This document shows positions 19,001 through 62,000 of a DNA stretch of 64,000 bases, piece after piece. The stretch is from Steromphala cineraria. Its lineage: Eukaryota; Mollusca; Gastropoda; Trochida; Trochidae. Numbering within the stretch: position 1 is the stretch's first letter; each line of letters opens with the position of its first letter. The notes under the pieces were generated by a model. The model was not told the DNA's origin, searched no databases, and was given only the letters and a program-made list of their open reading frames with translations. The DNA lies in assembly GCA_916613615.1 (NCBI GenBank), contig OU744730.1, positions 22,136,406 to 22,200,405 of the forward strand, given 5' to 3'. The translations under genes and the position numbers were made by a program.

Positions 19001-22000
19001 GTTGGCTTGATCCAATACATAAATGTCAGAATCGAATCGAGGTCGAAACATACACATATGTTGAAGTTGAAGGATACATTTTGTAGTTGAAGCACATTTT
19101 TCGCAGGGTAAACTCATACATGTGTGTGAAATTTGAATCAACCTCTTTGGTGTAGAATCATGCGTATCCAAACATACACACAGCGTTAGAATAATAAAAG
19201 AGTGAAGTCAAATCAAAAACGTGGAAGTCGATTCAAATAATAAGTTCAAATGATACATGTTAGTCGAATGATAAAGGCGGAGGAAAATACCTTTATATTG
19301 AAGTTGAAATGTAGAATAGTTAAACAATGCGTAAGTCGAATAGTGATTGAATCATACATGTTAAAATGGAGTCATGTTGATATAAAATGTTGTATACAAA
19401 TCAAATATGTAGAAGTCGAATGATACATGTATGGAAGTCGAGTTCGATGAATACACGTTGATGTCTAATGTTGAAATTAAATCAAATATGTGGAGATGAA
19501 ATCTTGTACATGTGGAAGTAAAACGTTTCGCGGGGAGGTAAAATCTTATATTTGAAGTTCAAATAATTCACATCGAAGTATAATGTAACTTCAATATTAA
19601 TGGAGTCTATGATTGAAAGTTAAGCCGTTCATGTGAAAGCACTTCAAAGCAGAGACGTTATATTCTGTTATTCAAATCTCTGGTGGATATTAGTTACATC
19701 ATACATGTGTAACTTGAATCAAATCATAACATTGGAGTCGATTCTTACGCCATACACGAGGAAGTCGAATTATACATGTGTAAATCGAATCATACATGTG
19801 AAGGTGAATCATACAAGTGGAAGTTACACCATACACGTTTAATGATAATCATACCTATGGAAATTACACCATACACGTATAATGCTAATCATACATGTGG
19901 AAGTTGCACCATACACGTTTAATGCTAATCATACCTGGGGAAATTACACCATACACGTATAATGCTAATCATACATGTGGAAGTTACACCATACACGTTT
20001 AATGCTAATCATACCTGTGGAAATTACACCATACACGTTTAATGCTAATCATACAGGTTTAAGTTACACCATACACGTTTAATGCTAATCATACCTGTGG
20101 AAGTTACACCATACACGTTTAATGCTAATCATACAGGTATAAGTTACACCATACACGTTTAATGCTTATCATACATGGGGAAGTTACACAATACACGTTT
20201 ACTGCTAATCATACATGTGGAAGTTACACCATACACGTTTAATGCTAATCATACCTGTGGAAGTTACACCATACACGTTTACTGCTAATCATACCTGTGG
20301 AAGTTACACCATACACGTTTAATGCTAATCATACATGTGGAAATTACACCATACACGTGGAAATCGAATCATACATGTGGAAATTACACCATACACGTTT
20401 AATGCTAATCATACATGTGGAAATTACACCATACACGTTTAATGCTAATCATACAGGTTTAAGTTACACCATACACGTTTAACGCTAGTAATACATGTGG
20501 AAATTACACCATACACGTGGAAGTCGAATCATACATGTGTACTATGATCATACAAGTGGAGATCGAATTATTTATGTGAAAATTACATTAAACATGTGGA
20601 AGTCGAATCAAACATGTTGAAGACGATCCGTTCATGTTGGCCTGGGTAGAATAATATACTTTGATGTGACCAAAATCTACACAATCTAAATATAAAAAAA
20701 CAGGACTTATAATATCATACATATCAAACTGTCGATCTAAATATATTTAAATTCGAATGTACCAAAGATACCCTGCACTGTCTGCTACAAAAGCAACTCC
20801 TAGCTTATCGAATGTGTCAAAATTCAACAGGAAATATATTTTTTTCAGTATAATTATCAAATCACAATTTGCTGAAGTATTTTTATTAGAGAGAGACACG
20901 TATCATTCATCAAGCACTGTTATTCAATAGAAGCTTACCGTCACTGTGTTCCTGTGGTGTGGCGTCGATAGCGTTCCATCCATCATATGTCATTCCATCT
21001 GTGTTCAAATTCTGACAGCGGAACCAACACTCATTCCACACATGGAAATTCCTATAATATCAACGGTGTTCAGTGAGAAATAGTATATTAATATTTGAGC
21101 ATTATGGTTGAAAGTGAACATTCATATAGCCAAACGTGATGCAAACAAGGAATTGTAATTATCATTTTCAACTTTTATTGCAAATTTTGAATTTGAAAAA
21201 TGATTTGATGTCCTCGGTCGTAAAATGTTTATGAAAACAAGTCTTATAAATACTCTTGTGACATTCACGTGCAGCTTTGATGATTCTTTTCATTGGCTGT
21301 TGCGTAACCTATTGACTTATCGGATATTTCAATTGGATTACATGTATGTATTTTTATTTTATTTTAACTGTATCTGTTTTATTTTATTATGTGATCATTC
21401 TTTGAGAACTTTGTTTCTTTTGAGCTATTTGTTTGACTGTAAGGGTATGACGTCTATACCAGATGGAGTCACGTTTTTCCTCCACCCATTTCCCAGCGCT
21501 GTTCTTCTTCCTGATGACGTCAACGCTGATTCGCTCCAGGTCCGTGTTATGAGCCGAGCTGTGATTGGTCACACTCCGACAAGGCAGACCAATCGCACGG
21601 CACACTAGAATAAAACATTGTCACATTGCAACATAGTTGAAGAGAGGTTCCACATTAATAATGGTTCCAGTTTTCAAAAGGTAGCTTAGATTCGAAACTG
21701 TAGCTTGTCAATCTAAGACAACAAAAATATATAAGGGTTTCAGGTGGTCCTGATTAGATTCGTTTATTCGTTAAATGAAACAATTATACCCAAAACGCTA
21801 TCAATCTATCTCATCAATGCTACCAACCTGTAGTGGTCACTGCGGAGAAGACCCAGCACTGGCCGAACTTGACCGGTAGTCCTTTGTCCATGTAGCGTTC
21901 TAGGATCTTCACGCTTCCGTTCCAAGATGTCGGCTTCTCTCCTCCTGCATAGTTTCCGCTCCAGTTTCCCCACAGTACGCCATTGTCGTCCGAACTGTTC

Positions 22001-25000
22001 ACCTATAACAGGCATGTTGAATGTTAATGCGGGATTCTGGATAAATTTCTCGTGTAATATTAAAAGATGATTTCAATATCAAAATACGATGAGAAACAAC
22101 AGGCTTCGAAGAAAAATACCACTTATTGGTTACTACAGATGACCAATTAATGCATTGTCAGGTCTTTGGCAGGTCGTCAAATTGAAATTTGCTTTTGTAT
22201 AGAAAACAAAAAATGAAGAGTTATCTCCCCTGGATGTTAAATTTCATTGATAGCTTTGCCAGAGCATACGGAAATGACCGAGGCTTTGCGAACGACTGCT
22301 TTTGAAACGGGGTCGTCGCTTATGGCACAACTAACTTGGGTTGTCTCAATCGGATTTCTACCTTTTCTATCCTATGTATTCGGCTTATTAGAACAGAGGC
22401 TTGCTCGCGTATTGGCTGAATATTAAAGACATGGATATGAAATTCAATATTCTGAAGAATTTAAATTGTTATCTATAGCTACATAAATGGGATTTGACAC
22501 GACTACAAATTGACTAAAAACGACCGTCCTAATTGATAAACACACACACCTACTGCTACGTCATAGAAGGTTGACACGCTCGGGACACGCTTCAGTGACC
22601 ACAGATTCTGTTCGCCGGGGCTAATTGGGCAGTGTATTTAAAAAGCCGCATTTAGGCAGGTTACCGTCCGATTTCGAAAATTCAAAGTTGACTCTAATTC
22701 AAATTGCAAGCCCCTTTTTATGAATCCCGAAAGTGGCCATAGACCATTTCAGTCCCCCTTTAACATGACTTACAATGGTAGAGATGACCCTTGACACGGC
22801 TGCAGGACTGCCCATGCTAGGTTTAGTCGTCCCAAAACCTTTCCTGAGAAGATGCAACGATATGTCCAGGATATCGTCCTCAAACTGGAACAAAAGTTAT
22901 CAATATTAAAAATAGCAGTTTTGTCTTTGGTTCATCGTTGATGAAAGACGACAATTCTTAGTAATGTCTTTATCATCTGCATCTAATGCATATCTGACAT
23001 CTTTTGAAACTGTTATGAAGGTAATGTATGATAGAAATAGACGTTTAAAAATATCTGGAGCCGACTTCTCACCAGTCTAAGTAAACTTAGCCACAATATT
23101 ATCCGTTTCACTCCTATACTGAGTCTAGAAAGGTCTAGTAGAGGGTCGCGTCAACCAACCTTTCTGCGACCTATGACCCTCCAACGTTATACGTGCGAAG
23201 GCAGACTATTGTGGCTAGGTAAGATGACTTCTGATTGGTCAATTCGATACATGGGCTGGCGCGACCCTCTACTAGACCTTTCTAGACTCAATATCGGAGT
23301 TAAACGGGTAATATTGAGGCTAGGTTTACTTAGATTGCAAAAACGTATACATCATTCCACTGCTCTACGATCGACCTAATTATATCGGGAGTATAACGGT
23401 AGGGGTCGGCATTGATCAACTAGGAACCTGAGTGGGTCTGCACATTTATAGAAATGATTTGAATTATTGAAGTGTTGCCACATCAAATCGTTGGTGTCGA
23501 ATCGGACCTAATATAGCTTAGAAACAGCGCTTTAAAGACATATTCTTCGTTGCTCTTCGCGGACGACATTGTGTTGTTAGCTCCGAATGAAGAGAGTCTA
23601 CAGTCTATGTTAAATATTGTCGACCAGTGGTGTTCAAAGTGGCTACTCAAGTGAACATAGATAAAACAAAAGTTATACATTTTCGTCCTAACAGTTTTCA
23701 AGTTACAAGTTTTAAATTTTCGTGTGGAAATGAAGACCTTGAAATAGTAGAAAGGTATAAATATCTAGGTCTGTGGTTTGATGAACACTTAGATTTTCGT
23801 ATGACAGTGAAAGAAATTGCTAAATCAGCAAGTCGAGCTTTATCGTGTTTACAGACTAAATGCATTGAAGCAGGAGGTATGACATATGAGACATTCACGA
23901 AATTGTATGAGACGCTTGTTCAACCAGTATTACTATACGGATCTGCAATATGGGGTACTAAAGAGTACAGCTGCATAAACTCAGTTCAGAATAGAGCTTG
24001 TCGTTTTTTTCTTGGACTCACTCGTTCCACCTCCAATTGTGCAATTCGTGGCGAAATGGGATGGAAAAGTTGTTTGACAAAACAACGTATCGAAATATTT
24101 AGACTCTTCTCCAAAATAACGCTGCAGGAAAATACTATATCAAAGAAAGTGTTCGGTTGGTCACGAAGGAAAAGAAAATCTTGGATCCACAAAGTTACCT
24201 CCCTTGCAGCCAAAATGTCTATTAATATTGATTTTATTAACTCTTCATCAATTAACTGTTTTATGCGCCATGTGAAACACAGATGTAATGTTGTTGACGA
24301 CGAACAGTGGTTCAGCGACCTGTGGAACGACAAAAAACTGCAAAATGGAAATAAATTAAGGACATATAGAAAGTTCAAAAAGGACAGAGTACCAGAAAGT
24401 TATCTATTCTGTTCTATGACAAGATATCAGCGAAAGCTCTTAGCTAAACTACGATGCGGTACCCTCCCATTAAGTATAGAAACCGGCAGATATACCCGAC
24501 CCCCGACACCTCTAGAATCCCGCGTTTGCCCATTCTGTGAACATATCGTCGAAGACGAAGAACATTTTCTGATAGACTGCTCCATGTACGCTGACATTAG
24601 ATACCAACTTTTAAACAATGACCTTTTACCTGATAATTTCATAAACTTCACTTCTACCCAAAAGCTAATAACTGTGATGCAGTGTCCCGGAATTCAGCAG
24701 AACCTAGCTAGCTGTATTGACAAGATGTTCCAGAGAAGAAAAAACTTTAACTGATTTTAAAATGATAATATTATTTTACATCTTAAATAATATATACATA
24801 TATATTTTCATATATAATATCATTTACACATCTTATTATTGCTTTATTTCTTTGTGTATGAATGTGTGTCAACGCGTGTATATATTGTATATTATAATAT
24901 ATGTCTTGTATTAAGACGTATGTATGAAATGTATGAAAATTGAAAAATTGTATGAATGAATCACAGAAATGTAGGAATGCATGAAATGCGTGTCAAATGA

Positions 25001-33285: not shown

Positions 33286-35280
33286 AAAGGGGCAGTAGCA
33301 CGTTTTTTTGACAATTTTACATTTTCAATTTTTCACTGATAATTGTACATCAATGTCAAATTTAATATTTTGATAGTGTCAAAAATCTCATTACATAAAC
33401 CAATCTAGTCTGACAAAAACTTATATAGATTCACATAAAGTCCATTGGCGACCATTTTTGTGTAAACACCTTTAATTCAGTTTTAGTAAGAAAAAGGAAT
33501 CGCTTCACATTATACTGCTTCATTAAGTTTAACTACATTGTCTTTCAATTGGAACCATTAATATTATTTTACATGAATGTCAAGCAGGATTTCGAGCAAA
33601 TTATTCAACGATTGATAATATATTTGTACTTCAATCTCTTTGCCAAAAATACCTAAGAAAGCCAAAACATAGACTTTATGCAGCTTTTATAGATTAAAAA
33701 AAAGCATTTGATTTTGTTAATAGAAAAAAGCTCCTGTATGTCCTTCTTACAAAAGGTGTCCATGGTAAAATGTTTAATCTATTAAAAGACATGTATGATA
33801 AGGTATCTGCGTGTGTTAAATTAAAGTTGGAAATAGGAGATCAGAAATATTTGACACATTATCTGGGGCAAGGCTGTATGCTTAGTCCAGCTTTGTTTAT
33901 TTTTTTTATCAATGAGCTTGTAGATGAAATGAATAATTGTGGATTAAGAGGAATATTTGTCAAAGATGGTTTAAGTGATGTTTTATTGATGTTGTTTGCA
34001 GATGATGTTACTTTACTTGATGACACTATAATTGGCCTGCAAAGAAAACTTGATATATTATATGGTTTTTGTTCAAAATGGGGTTTTGAAGTTAAACTTG
34101 AAAAATCTTGTATAGTTGTATTCAGAAATGGTTGTTATCTTAAGAAATCAGAAAAATGGTTCTATAACGGAACACGAATGAATGTTGAATCCCACTATAA
34201 ATATTTAGGTGTTGTTTTACTACAAAATTGAAACACTAGGTTTACAAGCCAAGAAAGCCTCATTTCCGATTTTTAGAATGTTCAAAGATTTTCCAAATAT
34301 ATCCTTGAATTTTGCATAAGCAATATTTGACAGTAAAATAGCTCCATAATTATTTAATACGGTAGTGAAATCTGGGGTCATTCGTACCGTACTCATATTG
34401 AGAAAATCCATTGTTTCTTTTTCAAACGTTTCCTTTGTGTTAATAAAACTATTTCTTCCAATGCTATACTTGGTGAAATTGGAAGAACATATTTATGTGT
34501 TAAATATTTCAGCAGATGTATAACATATTGGTGCAGAATATTACATATGGATGATCATCGTCTTCCGAAAGCATGTTATGATATGTTAAGATGATCATGG
34601 CAGCTTCAGTTGGGTCACCCATGTAAGCTTGCTTCTGTTTCGTACTGGATTCTCATATGCATGGATTACACAAGACTGTGGTAATATTGATGTATTTGTT
34701 AATGAATTTAAACAAAGATGTAAAGATATTGAACTTCAGAATTGGCATTCTAGAATAACATCCTCATCTTTTCTTAATTATCATGGAGAAATTAAATCTG
34801 CCCTGGAACCTGAGAAATACATTTTAGCACTGAATACTGATAAAGATTTTTTCGTATTTTATGCAAATTTCGCTGTCTGAGTCATAAGTTGAACATTCAA
34901 CAACAAAGGTATAATGTTGATACACAAGTTAGTAAACTCTTATGTGACAAATGTGATTATAATGTTAAACAATGTTAGACAATTGTATATACCCAGTTAT
35001 TATCATACCTTCCCATCCGAATTAAAATTCAAACAACTTCTAACAACAACAAATGTACATTTATTGAAATCTGTTGCAATATTTCTTAAACGCAACCTGC
35101 CTGTGTAAATACAAATTTTGAAATAACACTTAGATGTTATCCTGTCCATACGCAAACTATCATTTAAATGATTGTACTATTGGTCATGAGGCCTTCAATA
35201 CTGAATAAACTTCTTCTTCTTCTTCTTCATTTATTTTCATTTTCCTTATATTCCCCCTAAAAACGTGCTACCGTCCCCTA
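33286..35280. mobile_element. MITE copy 2 split by a LINE insertion
   Basis: The left MITE half (AAAGGGGCAGTAGCACG at 33286 to about 33572) and right half (about 35229-35280, CCTTATATTCCCCCTAAAAA then CGTGCTACCG) match the continuous copies at 48.5 and 61.7 kb. The 1.65 kb between them is LINE sequence. Confidence 0.85.
33573..35228 (+). mobile_element. 5'-truncated, decayed LINE nested in a MITE
   Basis: Begins in reverse transcriptase motif territory (NECQAGFRANYSTIDNIF), then a stop within the FIDxKKAFDFVNRKKLL motif, QGCMLSPALFIFFINEL, and the active-site LMLFADDVTLLDD. YKYLGVVL follows, then several breaks. It ends with AATAAA followed by CTT repeats. The stops and frame breaks show it is inactive. 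The 33770-34231 open frame is its longest intact piece. Confidence 0.88.
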
Positions 35281-50340: not shown

Positions 50341-50759
50341 AAGTAAGTTCATCCTCCTCATGTTATTTGCAATAGCGAAATTGACGAGCAATACCATCTC
50401 GTCTACCAGTATTTCTGTATGTGGATAGCTCACCAATTGTTGACAAAGTATTTCAACGTCTTGCTTCTTCTTGCAAGAAGCGTTTTCATTTGTTAAAAAC
50501 GTTCAATGAATTGTGGTGCAATTCTTTCCGCCAGGGGCAACTGTCAGTCTAATTAGAACAGAAGTTCAATCAACATCACTTGATCTGCCTCTGTTGGGAA
50601 AGAATGCCTATCCCTTTGCATTTCACGAATTTATCAAGAACTATCAACACGGAATCAACATAGACATAATGACTGCCACATTCCCAATAACTCAAACCAA
50701 TATCTTACGAATTACTCTACATGCCTATCTATGATATGGAATCTCATAAATTCACGTGC

Positions 50760-51510
50760 ATATCCATGTTCTTGATTTGAAACATTACACATGCCTATCC
50801 ATGTACTTGATTTTATACATTACACGTTCCTATCCACGTGCTTGATGTTATACATTACATGTGCCTATCCACGTGCTTGATTTTATACATTACACGTGCC
50901 TATCCATGTACTTCATTTTATACATTATTCGTGCCTATCCATGTACTTGAATTTACACATTATTCGTGCCTATCCATGTACTTGATTTTATACATTATTC
51001 GTGCCTATCCACGTGCTTGATTTTATACATTACACGTGTCTATCCATGTACTTGATTTTATACATTACACGTGCCTATCCACGTGCTTGATTTTATACAT
51101 AAAACATGCCTATCAATGTACTTGATTTTAAACATTACGCGTGCCTATCCATGTACTTGATTTTATACATTATTCGTGCCTATAAAAATACTTGATAAAC
51201 ATGCTTATCTGTGTAATTGTATATATATACGTTACACGTGCCTATGGATATATTTGATAATATATACCTCACATGTGTCAATCGATGCACTTGATTTGAA
51301 ACATTACAGGTGTCTATTTATGTACTTGATTACCTACATTAAACATGCTTACCTGTGTACTTCATATATACTTACATGTGCCTAAACATGTACTTGATTA
51401 TTTATAGCTTACAATCGAGGTACTGGAGTTTATACATTACACGTGCCTATCCATGTATTTGATTTGAAACATTACATGTGGGTATACATGTACTTGATTT
51501 TATCTATTAC
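50760..51510. repeat. Minisatellite of about 35 bp between TG-B and TG-C
   Basis: About 20 imperfect tandem units of CACGTGCCTATCCATGTACT followed by TGATTTTATACATTA. Unit length drifts and copies decay towards the right. Confidence 0.88.
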
Positions 51511-52916
51511 ATGTTAATAATTTCTATAAGTTTATTTGATCATTTTATCCGAAGTTGATGGTTAACAAGGCAAAAGTAAAATAAATATGTTGCAAAAATT
51601 TATTACGGAAAAATACATGACAAAATACATTTAAAGGTGAAGAAAGTGGCACTTTCACAGAAACTGAACTCGCATAAGCAGTCAATGCATCGTCTTTCCT
51701 TTAATCAATAGAATATATCCTTAGAATATTGGAACTCAAGTAAAACAATTAGCAATCTATCTTTCTTCGTCAATGGACAATAATGCTCTTGTCTAACTTT
51801 GAATGCTTAAAACTGTTGACCCTGAACACCAGCAATTTATGATATGAAACTCAAGCAGAAAATGTGAGATTGAAAAAACTTTTGATAGAGTTTCGTCTCC
51901 ATATCTTCATATAAAGAAAATCTAGCCATGGAATATATCAGAGAACTAAGAACTAAGAAAAATTAAATCTTTAAAATATGATAATAGGAATTAATAATTG
52001 AAACCAAGAAGTAATGTATTGTCCTATAATTGTAACCTGATTGCTGTATCTGGCTCCAGTGAGTAATTCGTTATAAAATTGTTCATAATAGTCATCTCCC
52101 AGCTAAAACAACTATTGTTTTGATGGAAAATAAAAATGAATAAGCTATTTTGTGGAGTATTTTTTTGTTCTGCAAATAAAATAATAATTAAAAGTAAAAT
52201 GTTTATATCAGGTGTTAATTAGTGGTATCTGACGATCTAATTCTTTTTAATGTTGAAAATTGATAATGGTTACATGAAATACATGGACATTATGATTAAC
52301 AGCACATAAGTTTTAACAACTACATGTAAACAATGTGATCACAGATAACAGGTTGACATCGTAATAAAAGGTCAAGTAAATATATCATCTTCCCTTTTAG
52401 GAGCAATTTTAAGTAATGTACAAAAGAAAGTACACACTGAAGTTGGATTCAATATATCTTAATAATATTTCTAAAAGACATATGATGTATTCCATAAAGG
52501 CATGATAACATTAACACATAATATATCCAGAAGCTTGAATGAATTAATAAGTGTCTTGTTTACATTCTGTTAAGAAAATACCATCGCGTTCAAAAATTTG
52601 TAAATATGTGAAGACTGAAGAAAATTTACTGATTTTTACATAAAATACATTCTCTATGTGGAAAAACATTTGTATTTCATCAAGTTGGATTTGGAAAAAT
52701 TATATTTCAAAATTGTTATTACAAAATGTAATTAAAAGTACTTGGAAGTTTCTTTTGAATAATTATTATGTTCCCTAAGGTTTTTAAGTTCAACAAAAAA
52801 AAACCTTGAAATATTTATATAATCATTGGTAATCATACATATGATAAAACCAACCAATGTGTACTTTCTTTTGACCCTCAGGTTATATATAGCTGTGGCC
52901 CAGGTTCTGTGTGGTA

Positions 52917-53067: not shown

Positions 53068-56000
53068 CTGAAGGAACAAGCAAGGAGTTGTTTTCATTTA
53101 TGATTCATATTTATTATTTCAAAAATTTACAGGAGCAGTACACGTTTGTATTACTTATCGTGTAATTGTTAATTAATGTAACACCATGTAAATAAATCCA
53201 CCCTATCATTTATAAAGTCATACTACATCATAACTCAAATATTCTTGAACAGTACCTTAAATGAACTATTTATATTAGAAGATTAAGGATATTATTTTCG
53301 CAAAGGAGTGTGAAAAAATCCGTCAAGTATTATTTTCAGATCCATAAAGGCGTAGGAAGCCCTTTGCCAATAGTAACAAACAGGATAAATATCTGTCTTA
53401 TGGCTTATCCAATGTTTATCTCATCGAATGATTTCGAATTTTATATGTAACAAGAGGCGCAGCTTTTAGCAAATACATCGAAAACGATTATCAAATTATA
53501 TTTTGTTCGACAGATTCGAACGAAGTCTCTACAGGATTCGAACAAACACTTGGAAGCAATGCAAACAGAGCGATCCTGTTATCAGTTCCTACCATTCAAA
53601 CCAAAGGATTTATAACAAGTAACTCGCATGTCAATGTTATGTTTTGTCACCATAAAATGTATAATAAAAGCGGTGTGAGACTCACGAAATGGGGAAGCTG
53701 TCAGATCGGGGATCGATGAACGTGAAACCTCCACTCAGGTCGATATCACAGTTAGTCAGGTAGATGCTGAAGGGATTAGTGAAGGAAACCTCAACCTCCA
53801 TCCTTCCAAATCTAGAACACGTCGGGGGACCCTGAAACACAACTGGTATATTCACACGCTGCAATCTTCAATTCCTTATAGTTATTTCATGCTACTGTCC
53901 TAACCTCCTCCTTCATCATCATCTTCATTGTCGTCATCATCATCATCATCAACGTCATATTCATCACCATGATCATAATCATCATCACCAAGATCAGTAT
54001 CATCATCATAATCATCATATTCATCATCATGATCCTAATCATCATCACCAAGATCAGTATCATCATCATAATCATCATATTCATCATCATGATCCTAATC
54101 ATCATCACCATGATCATAATCATCATCATAATCATCATATTCATCATCATGATCCTAATCATCATCACCATGATCATAATCATCATCATAACCATATGGA
54201 TCATAATCATCTTGATCATAATCATAATTATAATAATGACCATTATCATAATCATCGACTTATGCTGATCTCATCGTCATCATCATCATCAGCGCCATCA
54301 TCATCATCATCGTCGTCGTCGTCATCATTGTCGTCGTCGTGATAAGCATCATTATCCTTTTCATGATGACAATCACCAATATCCACGAGTGATACTGATT
54401 CATCATGAAGACAAACACCAATATCCATGAGTGATACTGATTCATCATGGTGACAAACACCAATATCCATGAGTGATACTGATTCACCATGATGACAATC
54501 ACCAATATCCATGAGTGATACTGATTCATCATGATGACAATCACCAATATCCATGAGTGATACTGATTCACCATGAAGACAAACACCAATATCCACGAGT
54601 GATACTGATTCACCATGAAGACAAACACCAATATCCACGAGTGATACTGATTCATCATGATGACAATCACCAATATCCACGAGTGATACTGATTCATCAT
54701 GATGACAAACACCAATATCCATGAGTGATACTGATTCACCATGAAGACAAACACCAATATCCACGAGTGATACTGATTCACCATGATGACAATCACCAAT
54801 ATCCACGAGTGATACTGATTCACCATGAAGACAAACACCAATATCCATGAGTGATACTGATTCACCATGAAGACAAACACCAATATCCACGAGTGATACT
54901 GATTCACCATGATGACAAACACCAATATCCATGAGTGATACTGATTCACCATGAAGACAAACACCAATATCCATGAGTGATACTGATTCACCATGAAGAC
55001 AAACACCAATATCCATGAGTGAAACTGATTCATCATGATGACAAACACCAATATCCATGAGTGATACTGATTCATCATGATGACAATCACCAATATCCAT
55101 GAGTGATACTGATTCACCATGAAGACAAACACCAATATCCATGAGTGATACTGATTCATCATGATGACAAACACCAATATCCATGAGTGATACTGATTCA
55201 TCATGATGACAATCACCAATATCCATGAGTGATACTGATTCATCATGAAGACAAACACCAATATCCATGAGTGATACTGATTCACCATGAAGACAAACAC
55301 CAATATCCATGAGTGATACTGATTCATCATGAAGACAAACACCAATATCCATGAGTGATACTGATTCATCATGAAGACAAACACCAATATCCATGAGTGA
55401 TACTGATTCATCATGAAGACAAACACCAATATCCATGAGTGATACTGATTCACCATGAAGACAAACACCAATATCCATGAGTGATACTGATTCATCATGA
55501 TGACAATCACCAATATCCATGAGTGATACTGATTCATCATGATGACAATCACCAATATCCATGAGTGATACTGATTCATCATGATGACAATCACCAATAT
55601 CCATGAGTGATACTGATTCACCATGAAGACAAACACCAATATCCACGAGTGATACTGATTCACCATGAAGACAAACACCAATATCCACGAGTGATACTGA
55701 TTCACCATGAAGACAAACACCAATATCCATGAGTGATACTGATTCATCATGAGGACATCATTCATAATTATAAAACAATTATCCCAACCACTACATCGCA
55801 TTAAGTACCAAAAGCTTTGCCCTTAGCTCCCACTACCAACGCCACACCCCTTCGGTCATCATCATAGTCGTCACGTTATTGCTTCTGTAAGGGCGGATGT
55901 GATGACAAGCCGCCGTTTTCAATATCATACAGTATATAAGGGTATACAGTATACAAACTGTTGACTTAGTTTTGGGTTAGCACATTCTAGAAGATAGATC

Positions 56001-59000
56001 TAAAGTTTTCAATCACGATTAACAGAATGACTTTAATGTTTTTGGACAGTTTAACCCAATTATCCATCAGCTTCTGACGGCTCTCTATTTCTCTATATTC
56101 TTTTTTACTCACAGTGACTTTGACGTCCGGCCTCCTCAGCCTGAAGTCGAACTCCTCGGTGACCATATCCTCGGAGCCGTCCATCCGCGTGTACGGGACG
56201 ATAGCTTGCAGTTCGAATATGTAGCCGTCCTTGGGTTTAGCCAGGGAGACAGGGGGTTCCATCAGCAGAGAAAACAATTGACCTGTTGCATAGTAATAGC
56301 TGAAGTTTTCGCTCCATACATGATGATTTCTACGACTTTGGAATAATCATTGGAGTTATGGCATATTTCAGCCTCTGAGGAAAATATATTTGGCAGAAAC
56401 CAATTGTTACTGAGGAATTTGGACGATATAACTTAATATAAAATCGTACTTCTGCCCTTTTAATGCCACGATTATATATACGATTATTACCATGATGTAT
56501 ATTCTACAAGGATTATAGACAGTCAAACATTATTTTTCAGTAACAGGCCTCTGTCAAAAATACATACCCATAGATATTAGCATTTTATGCGGGAATTATA
56601 AATAATCGGTTCCATTTAAATTTATGTATATCCTCAACACAATGATAACCGAACGTACTTTGTCCAGGGTCAATAACCATCTTGCCATCGGTTGCAAATT
56701 TCTCCATCTTAGCCAGTCCCGTGTAAGAGTCGTAATACGTCTTGTAGAAGCACTTGAGAGTGATGGACTCAACGTGTACCGGTTCATCGCTAATATTCTT
56801 CACGTGTACACCCAAGCTGAACTCGCTTCCAACAAACACGTCTCCGGGATCCTCAAACTCGATTTCGAGATTCTGAAAAAAAGCAACACAAAATAACTGA
56901 CATTGTTTACTCTCGGGTTTCACTTGCAGAGTTTTTTTTATTTGAAGGGACCCAGAAACATTATGAGAGTTGTTTGATCGAAATGGGTCCAACTTTGTAA
57001 ATGGTATCATTTTATCCAGAGGTACCGGTTGTGTGTGCAAATTACCATTTTTATGCTGAGAGAGAGATTATACGTGTTTGAGGCATATAAACTTACATCA
57101 GTAAAGCCCCATGGATTGAAGAGGAGATTATACTTGGGTGAGGTTTATAAACTTACATCAGTAAAGCCCCAAGGATTGAAGAGGAGATTGTACGTGGGTG
57201 AGGTATATAAACTTACATCAGTAAAGCCCCCAGGATTGAAGTGAAGAGTATATATGGGTGAGGTATATAAACTTACATCTGTAAAGCCCCAAGGATTGAA
57301 GAGGAGATTTTACATGGGTGAGGTATATAAACTTACATCTGTAAAGTCCCAAGGATTGAAGAGGAGATTGTACGTGGGTGAGGTATATAAACTTACATCT
57401 GTAAAGCCCCAAGGATTGACGTGAAGAGTATACATGGGTGAGGTATATAAACTTACATCAGTAAAGCCCCAAGGATTGAAGAGGAGATTATACTTGGGTG
57501 AGGTATATAAACTTACATCAGTAAAGCCCCAAGGATTGAAGAGGAGATTATACTTGGGTGAGGTATATAAACTTACATCAGTAAAGCCCCAAGGATTGAA
57601 GTGAAGAGTATACATGGGTGAGGTATATAAACTTACATCAGTAAAGCCCCAAGGATTGAAGAGGAGATTATACTTGGGTGAGGTATATAAACTTACATCT
57701 GTAAAGCCCCAAGGATTGAAGTGAAGAGTATACATGGGTGAGGTATATAAACTTACATCAGTAAAGCCCCAAGGATTGAAGAGGAGATTATACTTGGGTG
57801 AGGTATATAAACTTACATCAGTAAAGCCCCAAGGATTGAAGTGAAGAGTATACATGGGTGAGGTATATAAACTTACATCAGTAAAGCCCCAAGGATTGAA
57901 GAGGAGATTATACATGGGTGAGGTAAATAAACTTACATCAGTAAAGCCCCAAGGATTGAAGAGGAGAGTATACATGGGTGAGGTATATAAACTTACATCA
58001 GTAAAGCCCCAAGGATTGAAGAGGAGAGTATACATGGGTGAGGTATATAAACTTACATCAGTAAAGCCCCCAGGATTGAAGAGGAGATTATACGTGAGTG
58101 AGGTATATAAACTTACATCAGTAAAGCCCCCAGGATTGAAGTGAAGAGTATATATGGGTGAGGCATATAAACTTACATCAGTAAAGCCCCCAGGATTGAA
58201 GTGAAGAGTATATATGGGTGAGGTATATAAACTTACATCTGTAAAGCCCCAAGGATTGAAGAGGAGATTATACGTGGGTGAGGTATATAAACTTACATCA
58301 GTAAAGCCCCCAGGATTGAAGTGAAGAGTATATATGGGTGAGGCATATAAACTTACATCAGTAAAGCCCCCAGGATTGAAGTGAAGAGTATATATGGGTG
58401 AGGTATATAAACTTACATCTGTAAAGCCCCAAGGATTGAAGAGGAGATTTTACATGGGTGAGGTATATAAACTTACATCTGTAAAGCCCCAAGGATTGAA
58501 GAGGAGATTGTACGTGGGTGAGGTATATAAACTTACATCTGTAAAGCCCCAAGGATTGACGTGAAGAGTATACATGGGTGAGGTATATAAACTTACATCT
58601 GTAAAGCCCCAAGGATTGAAGTGAAGAGTATATATGGGTGAGGTATATAAAGTTACATCAGTAAAGCCCCAAGGATTGAAGAGGAGATTATACATGGGTG
58701 AGGTAAATAAACTTACATCAGTAAAGCCCCATGGATTGAAGAGGAGATTATACATGGGTGAGGTTTATAAACTTACATCAGTAAAACTCCAAGGATTGAA
58801 GAGGAGATTATACATGGGTGAGGTTTATAAACTTACATCAGTAAAACTCCAAGGATTGAAGAGGAGATTATACATGGGTGAGGTATATAAACTTACATCA
58901 GTAAATCCCCAAGGATTGAAGAGGAGATTATACTTGGGTGAGGTATATAAACTTACATCTGTAAAACCACAAGGATTGAAGAGGAGATTATACATTGGTG

Positions 59001-62000
59001 AGGTTTATAAACTTACATCAGTAAAACCCCAAGGATTGAAGAGGAGATTATACATGGGTGAGGTATATAAACTTACATCAGTAAAGCCCCAAGGATTGAA
59101 GAGGAAATTATACATGGGTGAGGTAAATAAACTTACATCAGTAAAACCCCAAGGATTGAAGAGGAGATTATACATGGGTGAGGTATATAAACTTACATCA
59201 GTAAAACCCCAAGGATTGAAGAGCTCTTCATCCCAGGCAGATCCAGAGTGCATCAATGCAAACTTCCTCTGAGCCTTTCGAACAATATCTCTTTCTTCCT
59301 TCGAGCCTGATAAAACATATACATTGATAATAATAATTACAGCAACGTTAATGACGATACCGACAACGATAACGAAATGATTATAACATTAAAGGTTAAA
59401 TAAATAAATACAAATTCGTCATGTGAAACGATCTATAATTATTCATTTTTAATAACCAGCAAATTGACAACCTACAGATCATTTTTATGTCCTTGGCCAG
59501 TTCCTCAATACGACATTCAGCTCCTCTTATGGTCACCCCAATTAACGATTATTTTTGTAAATACCCCCCCCCCCCCCCCCCCCCCCCCTCGATAAAAGAC
59601 AGCTTTAGGGGATGCTCAAATCTTGCTCAACTAACCTTCCTCATATTTGTAGTCAAGCGTTAGGTCCTCTCGCTCAACGTTACTGGCGGTTCTGTTGGCT
59701 ATTGAAGTACTTCTGTACGGCTTGCCTGTAGGCTTGTGAGTACTGATCATTCGTCCCACTCTGTCAATAGGAGATAGCAGAGTTACATACGCAGGGTATA
59801 ATCAATATTCAAAGGACCTTATTAAACATATATAACAATATTCTCTCCGCTTTACTAACAAGGCAAAAGTGAGCGCGGCTCACATACCCCCGCTTGAGTT
59901 TGACCGCCTTCACGTAACATTAATTTGAAAATTTATGATTATGACTTAGAACACAATGATCTTGCAACCCTAAAAACTATTTCACTTCAAAACATCCCCG
60001 GCCATGTAGTTTTTGAATAAAATTCTGGGAACCCTGGAATTACCCCTAAAGGGCACAACAGCACTATACAGTCGAACCTTGTTTTGGTTACAGGTGAAAA
60101 TCGTCCGGATAGCAAATCGTCCGGTTAACTGGGTCATTTTTCTTAAGAAATATAGACACATTGTTTGAAAAATCTTTGTCCGTAAGGTGAGATTTATGGA
60201 TATACGGAGTCTGGGTTGAAGTGTGCAAGTCATTTGGTATTTATATATGCTCCGGAAACAAGATAAAGTAAAATTTTTTGACCGTTTTTGGTCAAAAGTT
60301 CAAAAATTATTTGGACCATTGAGTTGAAACCCCTAAAAGGCACAACAGCACCATATAGGCTACTTTCATACCAAATTTGAAGTTTCTAAGTGGTATAGTT
60401 TTTCAGTTATGCTCCGGAAACGAGACAAAGTCCAAAAATCGGACCGTTTTTGGTCAAAATTTCAAAAATTATTTGGACCATTGAGCTGAAACCCCTAAAA
60501 GGCACCACAGCACCATATAGGCTACTTCCATACCAAATTTGAAGTTTCTAAGTGGTATAGTTTTTCAGTTATGCTCCGGAAACGAGACAAAGTCCAAAAA
60601 TCGGACCGTTTTTGGTCAAAATTTCAAAAAATTATTTGGACCATTGAGCTGAAACCCCTAAAAGGCACCACAGCACCATATAGGCTACTTCCATACCAAA
60701 TTTGAAGTTTCTAAGTGGTATAGTTTTTCAGTTATGCTCCGGAAACGAGACAAAGTCCAAAAATCAGACCGTTTTTGGTCAAAATTTCAAAAATTATTTG
60801 AACCATTGAGCTGAAACCCCTAAAAGGCACCACAGCACCATATAGGCTACTCCCATACCAAATTTTAAGTTTCTAAGTGGAATAGTTTTTGAGTAATGCT
60901 CCGGAAACGATTTCGGACGGACGGACGCACGCACGCACGCACGGACGGACGGACACGCGGAGCGCTATATACCCCCGACTACGTCGTAGCGGGGGTATAA
61001 TTAGCTTTACAAAGGACATTTTGAATGCTTTGACAGAAGTAACTTCGACTGGCTAAAATTGAAATCCAGGTCATAACAGTTAAAGTTCAATCAGTTTAAA
61101 CTTTCCATTAAAATGAACAAATAAATACTCAACGGTAATAATGTTGATCCCGGAGGGAACAATATTTTTATAAACTTATAATAAGCTTATACTATGTTAT
61201 ATAAACTTTCTTAGAGTTTGACCGGCATCGCTCAGTACAGAGTTTGTTTCTGAATGGCAAGAGAGATAACTCTTCTTAACAGTCCTCTACTCACTGTACA
61301 ATATATGGTGCAACTCCATCTTGAAGAGAAAATAACTTATAGTTATATAAACGTTCTAAGAGTTTGACCGGCATCGCTCTGTACAGAGTTTGTTTCTGAA
61401 TGACAAGGGAGATAACTCTCCTAGACAGTCAGAATGACAAGGGAGGTAACTCTTCTAGACAGTCCTCTACTCACACATCCTTCTTCCTCTTCTTCTCCAT
61501 CAACAAACCAGTTTTATGATCCTCTCTGAACTCCACCTTGTCAGCATTCACCTCACTGAAGATGAACGGTCCGTCGTATCCCACAGTTATCTCCCCTTCC
61601 TTGATGGCCTTCAGAGGGGCCGGTCCACAGCAGTACACGCCTAGCCAGAAACAAAGAGGGATTCTTCTTAAAGGGGCAGTAGTACGTTTTTTGATAATTT
61701 TAGATTTCAATTTTTTCACTGATAATAATTGTAAGTTAATGCTAAATGTATTTTTTTGACAGTGACAAAAATCGCATTACACAAACCAATCATCCATTAT
61801 CAGAGGACAAAGTATGAAGATTCACATAAAATTCAATGGCGGCCATTTTGTGTGAACACCTTTACTTCATTTTGTGCAAGAAAAAGCAATCGTATGGCTT
61901 ATCTTAACGTTATATATTTGAATGATTACTGCTCCATTAACTTAAAAATTCATTGTCTTTCAATTGGAACCATTAATTTTAATTTTCCTGACATCACCTT

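Follow-up and report, generated by a model that had tools for sequence, protein, structure and literature searches.

How is a 5' splice site chosen when the border of an exon, together with its donor, has been repeated in tandem many times over? The question is raised by an array in the gastropod Steromphala cineraria, located in a 64,000-nt stretch of assembly GCA_916613615.1 (contig OU744730.1, positions 22,136,406 to 22,200,405 of the forward strand), which was analysed as a whole and is referred to here as the window. On the minus strand, at 57061-59220, 36 units of 60 bp straddle the border between exon 12 and intron 12 of the third transglutaminase gene in the window (TG-C). We consider it probable that a minisatellite has grown across this exon border, that the donor closest to the exon body (donor 1) is used in nearly all transcripts, and that the other copies are tolerated and mostly silent. 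This reading rests on the genomic sequence of one assembly.

A 60-bp array across the exon 12 border

The register of the array was established by Tandem Repeats Finder, a unit table and column counts. Tandem Repeats Finder placed the repeat at 57059-59223 with a period of 60, 36.1 copies, 93% matches and 0% indels, and cutting 57061-59220 into 60s yielded 36 head-to-tail units in exact register and free of indels, which bears out the copy number and period given in a first-pass annotation of this DNA. The units represent 26 distinct types; 24 of the 60 columns are variable, and two units differ by 4.9 bases on average. Both the unit length, which is within the roughly 10-100 bp of minisatellites, and the recurrence of unit variants in blocks, a mark of array turnover, identify the array as a minisatellite. 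For example, one pair of types makes up both units 14-15 and units 17-18; likewise, unit 12 shares its type with unit 31, and unit 14 with unit 33. Unit 36 at the distal edge (57061-57120) is the most diverged, with eight differences from the nearest unit. Both flanks lie in unique sequence, and CTC-rich sequence is alike at the two ends of the array (GAGCTCTTC on the exon side and CTCTCTCTCAG on the distal side).

The repeated unit corresponds to 24 nt from the 3' end of exon 12 followed by 36 nt from the start of intron 12. The hexamer GTAAGT is kept in 35 of the 36 units, as had been annotated, the exception being unit 10 (58621-58680) with GTAACT; from base composition, about 0.76 occurrences would be expected in 2160 nt. 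All 35 occurrences of GATGTAAGT on the minus strand of the window fall within the array, and the plus strand contains none. The accompanying claim that each unit carries the peptide LFNPWGFTD was too strong, as the exact peptide is encoded by 20 units and FNPWGFTD by 24.

From its introns and the type of transglutaminase we infer that the host is an animal transglutaminase gene. The TG-C model consists of nine predicted exon pieces joined with consistent phases. Its 5' end lies beyond the window, and the number "exon 12" is a label retained from the first-pass annotation. The predicted product matched Transglut_core above the Pfam cut-off and Transglut_C weakly, below the cut-off of that family, so that both the core and the C-terminal barrels typical of transglutaminases are represented, the latter only by this weaker match. 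It also matched 18 PDB sequences (best 9.2e-43), all of which are named transglutaminases, factor XIII or protein 4.2. In this model, exon 11 (59636-59760, minus strand) has 125 nt. Exon 12 (59197-59306, minus strand), which is placed by the phase-consistent model and by the paralogous exons, has 110 nt and ends with GAT, followed by donor 1; the final 24 nt form the exon part of unit 1. Exon 13 (56659-56872, minus strand; 214 nt) follows the acceptor TTTTTTTCAG and encodes the start of the first C-terminal beta-barrel according to the weak Transglut_C match. In the alignments with four solved transglutaminases, the exon 12/13 border falls in a poorly aligned stretch past the catalytic core, which we take to be the linker before the first beta-barrel.

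The array would have arisen by tandem duplication of the 60 nt that span the border, followed by growth to 36 copies. Slippage or unequal exchange as the mode of growth would fit the repeated blocks of unit types, the diverged distal edge unit and the CTC-rich sequence at both ends. With the exon border contained in the unit, each duplication would also have copied the 5' splice site. In support of this scenario, the gene is rich in minisatellites, with a 42-bp unit present 33 times in intron 14 and a 162-bp unit present four times before exon 11. Given several other minisatellites in the window, two of them in TG-C introns, an array over an exon border is not very surprising.

Choice among the donors

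Donor 1 (GTAAGT at 59191-59196, minus strand) is the presumed real 5' splice site according to the gene model. It matches the consensus at seven of nine positions and has a computed duplex energy with U1 of −5.4 kcal/mol. With this donor, exon 12 has 110 nt, whereas the corresponding exon, which is also predicted, has 107 nt in each of the two neighbouring paralogues; its end phase is identical in all three genes. Any other donor would lengthen the exon by 60 nt or more. No repeat was found at the exon 12 border of either paralogue by Tandem Repeats Finder and exon comparison. The agreement in exon length and the repeat-free borders of the paralogues support donor 1, with 59197 as the last exon base, as the ancestral exon border. 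The unit thus includes a 5' splice site, and its first copy coincides with the predicted exon border, in line with the earlier assignment of the real border to the exon-proximal unit.

Donors 2 to 36 follow at 60-nt steps (57091-59136, minus strand), and all but that of unit 10 read GTAAGT. The repeated donor, with GAT before the junction and GTAAGTTT after it, is the same from −3 to +8 in 35 of 36 copies, which also share the computed U1 pairing energy of donor 1. Even the last donor leaves an intron of 224 nt, so that splicing from each of them is physically possible. Since 60 is divisible by 3, the reading frame is kept from donor to donor. In-frame stops, on which the first-pass annotation is silent, are present in six units (4, 7, 8, 13, 32 and 35). 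The first, a TAA in unit 4 (58981-59040, minus strand), lies beyond donor 4 and is included by any exon that ends at donors 5-36, which are 32 of the 36 possible exon ends. With donors 1-4, the exon stays open at lengths of 110, 170, 230 and 290 nt, respectively; an uninterrupted product is possible from these four only.

Why would donor 1 be chosen among copies of the same sequence? It alone is directly preceded by the purine-rich body of the exon, and it alone gives the ancestral exon length. GAA or GAG trinucleotides occur nine times in the 110-nt exon 12 and are absent from the consensus unit; among the repeats they are confined to units 7 and 8, with one in each. Purine-rich stretches in the exon body may hence favour donor 1. 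If splicing leaked to donors 2-4, the linker between the catalytic core and the first beta-barrel would gain 20, 40 or 60 residues, whereas leakage to donors 5-36 would include a stop and probably lead to nonsense-mediated decay.

Some observations weigh against mostly silent copies. Donor 1 is intrinsically no stronger than its copies. Moreover, the donor block from −3 to +6 is variable at one of nine columns compared to 23 of 51 columns elsewhere in the unit (one-sided Fisher p = 0.055; column permutation p = 0.023). The lower variability would fit weak selection keeping the donors and is a hint at most; array homogenisation explains it equally well. For GTAAGT alone, selection was not significant (p = 0.22, Fisher; p = 0.10, column permutation). 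Variants in the exon part of the unit also lean toward synonymous changes (4 of 9 versus 13 of 72 possible; p = 0.087). In the intronic part, the variants comprise 4 synonymous, 14 nonsynonymous and 2 stop changes versus 24:76:8 possible (Fisher tests: synonymous share, p = 1.0; stops, p = 0.66; no mutation-bias model), and this part looks neutral for the reading frame, with no sign of coding use.

RNA structure was considered as a selector of the donor and rejected. Predicted accessibility was similarly low for all donors (mean 0.0096 unpaired over 9 nt, range 0.001-0.03; comparison 9-mers along the array, mean 0.12 and median 0.03), and no clear gain in stability over shuffled sequence was seen for any of four folded pieces of the array (z = 0.87, 0.02, 0.65 and −0.30). 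The donor segment GATGTAAGTTTATATAC, found at 59180-59200 and in the other units on the minus strand, is self-complementary, with 14 pairs and −8.4 kcal/mol when paired with itself; according to this calculation, pairing between two units could mask the donors of both. Ten units (5, 11-14, 17, 26 and 31-33) carry ACAG two bases 5' of the donor, which places an acceptor-like AG next to it. These units probably represent one kind of substitution that was spread by turnover. Pseudo-exons reaching from ACAG to the donor were rejected, as an exon of 2 nt is not credible.

Other readings of the array

The downstream donors, if mostly silent, perhaps support U1 binding. A stronger form of this idea is that they serve as a landing pad, where U1 small nuclear ribonucleoprotein (U1 snRNP) bound to donors that take no part in splicing would reinforce a moderately weak donor 1, and copy number would tune exon 12 inclusion. 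By U1 pairing, donor 1 indeed takes only seventh place among the eight donors of TG-C within the window (range −3.0 to −11.0 kcal/mol), and each paralogue has an exon 12 donor that pairs better (−9.6 and −10.0 kcal/mol). The slightly lower variability of the donor block would also agree with such a role. A precedent is known from PAH exon 11, where a U1 site downstream in intron 11 enhances the natural donor and is itself unused or marginally used (PMC5933811). The same source describes exon skipping that grows with the distance of the site from the exon (PMC5933811), and the nearest copy in TG-C is 60 nt away. As the conservation signal is marginal and U1 binding to the array is putative, predicted from sequence, we regard a landing pad as rather unlikely. 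Slightly less credit goes to a broader version, in which tens of equivalent copies lying downstream of the weak donor 1 would form a U1 platform, tuned by copy number, that sets the enzyme level through inclusion of exon 12. Use of donors 2-4 would then give a small graded set of linker lengths, and leakage further along would lead to decay; this combination is unlikely in our judgement.

The first-pass annotation had proposed a ladder of equivalent donors that could give exon 12 a series of lengths, which would call for regulated use of several of them. The structural part of this proposal holds, because equivalent donors at 60-nt steps are present, with 35 of 36 identical from −3 to +8 and 224 nt of intron left after the last one. 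The frame stays open with donors 1-4, which would lengthen the product by 0-60 residues at a position where the four solved transglutaminases align poorly. However, with a stop brought in by every donor from 5 to 36, at most four rungs could be productive; a stop is reached as early as unit 4, and coding constraint is absent from the intronic part across the array. The exon length obtained with donor 1 also agrees with the paralogues. In addition, human F7, which has 37-bp donor-bearing repeats in intron 7, is reported to use the most upstream donor only (PMC6627357). A regulated ladder is thus unlikely.

Assembly is difficult where 60-bp units are nearly identical, and a single assembly was available; the true array could be much shorter, with its copy number inflated or the unit order scrambled. 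Unlike a stuttered consensus, though, the array contains 26 unit types in an ordered arrangement, and both of its edges are anchored in unique sequence, which makes an assembly artefact improbable. It is very improbable that the array acts as a U1 snRNP sponge with effects beyond intron 12. Although 35 GTAAGT sites within one intron may invite this idea, U1 is very abundant in nuclei and the sites of one transcript should not deplete it, and they pair only moderately with U1 (−5.4 kcal/mol). Equally hard to credit is an exonic array read through as a 20-residue protein repeat: despite a period divisible by 3 and 30 of 36 units being stop-free in the exon frame, no frame is open through the array, and the stops in six units, together with the neutral mix of changes in the intronic part, led us to reject this largely refuted candidate.

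Neighbouring repeats and known donor-bearing systems

The window contains three apparent transglutaminase genes, all partial, which are arranged in tandem on the minus strand at approximately 15-22 kb, 39-44 kb and 53-64 kb. Within this cluster (15500-64000), an array at the exon 12 border occurs only in the third gene. Other tandem repeats are a 42-bp minisatellite of 33 copies at 54361-55757 in TG-C intron 14, a 162-bp repeat of four copies at 60246-60910 in the TG-C intron preceding exon 11, and 40-bp and 35-bp minisatellites of about 22 copies each at 19751-20617 and 50746-51511, respectively. Like the 60-bp array, these consist of diverged head-to-tail units, and two of them are situated in TG-C introns. 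The 42-bp and 162-bp arrays, however, lie away from mapped exons, whereas the 60-bp array straddles an exon border. The 35-bp array has one GTAAGT on the minus strand, and none was found on either strand of the 40-bp, 42-bp and 162-bp arrays. Two minus-strand frames through the 42-bp array are open for 501 and 520 codons, which indicates that open frames across such arrays arise easily. On the plus strand, an open frame at 33698-34231 matched the reverse transcriptase family RVT_1 (2.2e-18) and is probably a retroelement remnant. Pfam returned no match for a 387-codon frame at 23591-24754, nor did an Rfam scan of the window at gathering thresholds return any.

With 35 donors that share one sequence and are spaced a constant 60 nt apart, the first four being in frame, the locus offers a natural test of 5' splice-site choice. 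Counts of splice junctions along the array would directly measure how donor use falls off with distance from the exon, a relationship for which constructs with two donors and the small array in F7 have so far been the main approach. If donor 1 is used alone, TG-C would be a strong natural case of upstream-first donor choice, probably outside mammals.

Human F7 intron 7 resembles TG-C in having a donor-bearing repeat at the exon border. Each further repeat in F7 holds a copy of the donor, and about 5-8 repeats are present. The two arrays are found in unrelated genes and have unrelated units, with a handful of 37-bp copies in F7 versus 36 copies of 60 bp in TG-C, and the period of 60 keeps the reading frame, which a period of 37 does not. 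The first-pass annotation knew of no described case of an array of this sort, but F7 intron 7 is one, and use of the most upstream donor only is reported there (PMC6627357). For the F7 mutation that it describes, the same source gives skipping of the exon and use of cryptic donors further down the intron as the outcome (PMC6627357). PAH is comparable in that a donor-like intronic site is barely or not spliced. There, however, it is a single site at about +18 and its enhancer function was shown by mutation, whereas for the TG-C copies such a function is putative. The repeat of DDX3Y/MSY2 was dropped as a comparison because it supplies a transcription start and not a repeated donor (PMC3039753). 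Hence, the TG-C array appears to be an extreme case of a type already described, the minisatellite that carries a splice donor; new here are its 36 copies and its in-frame period.

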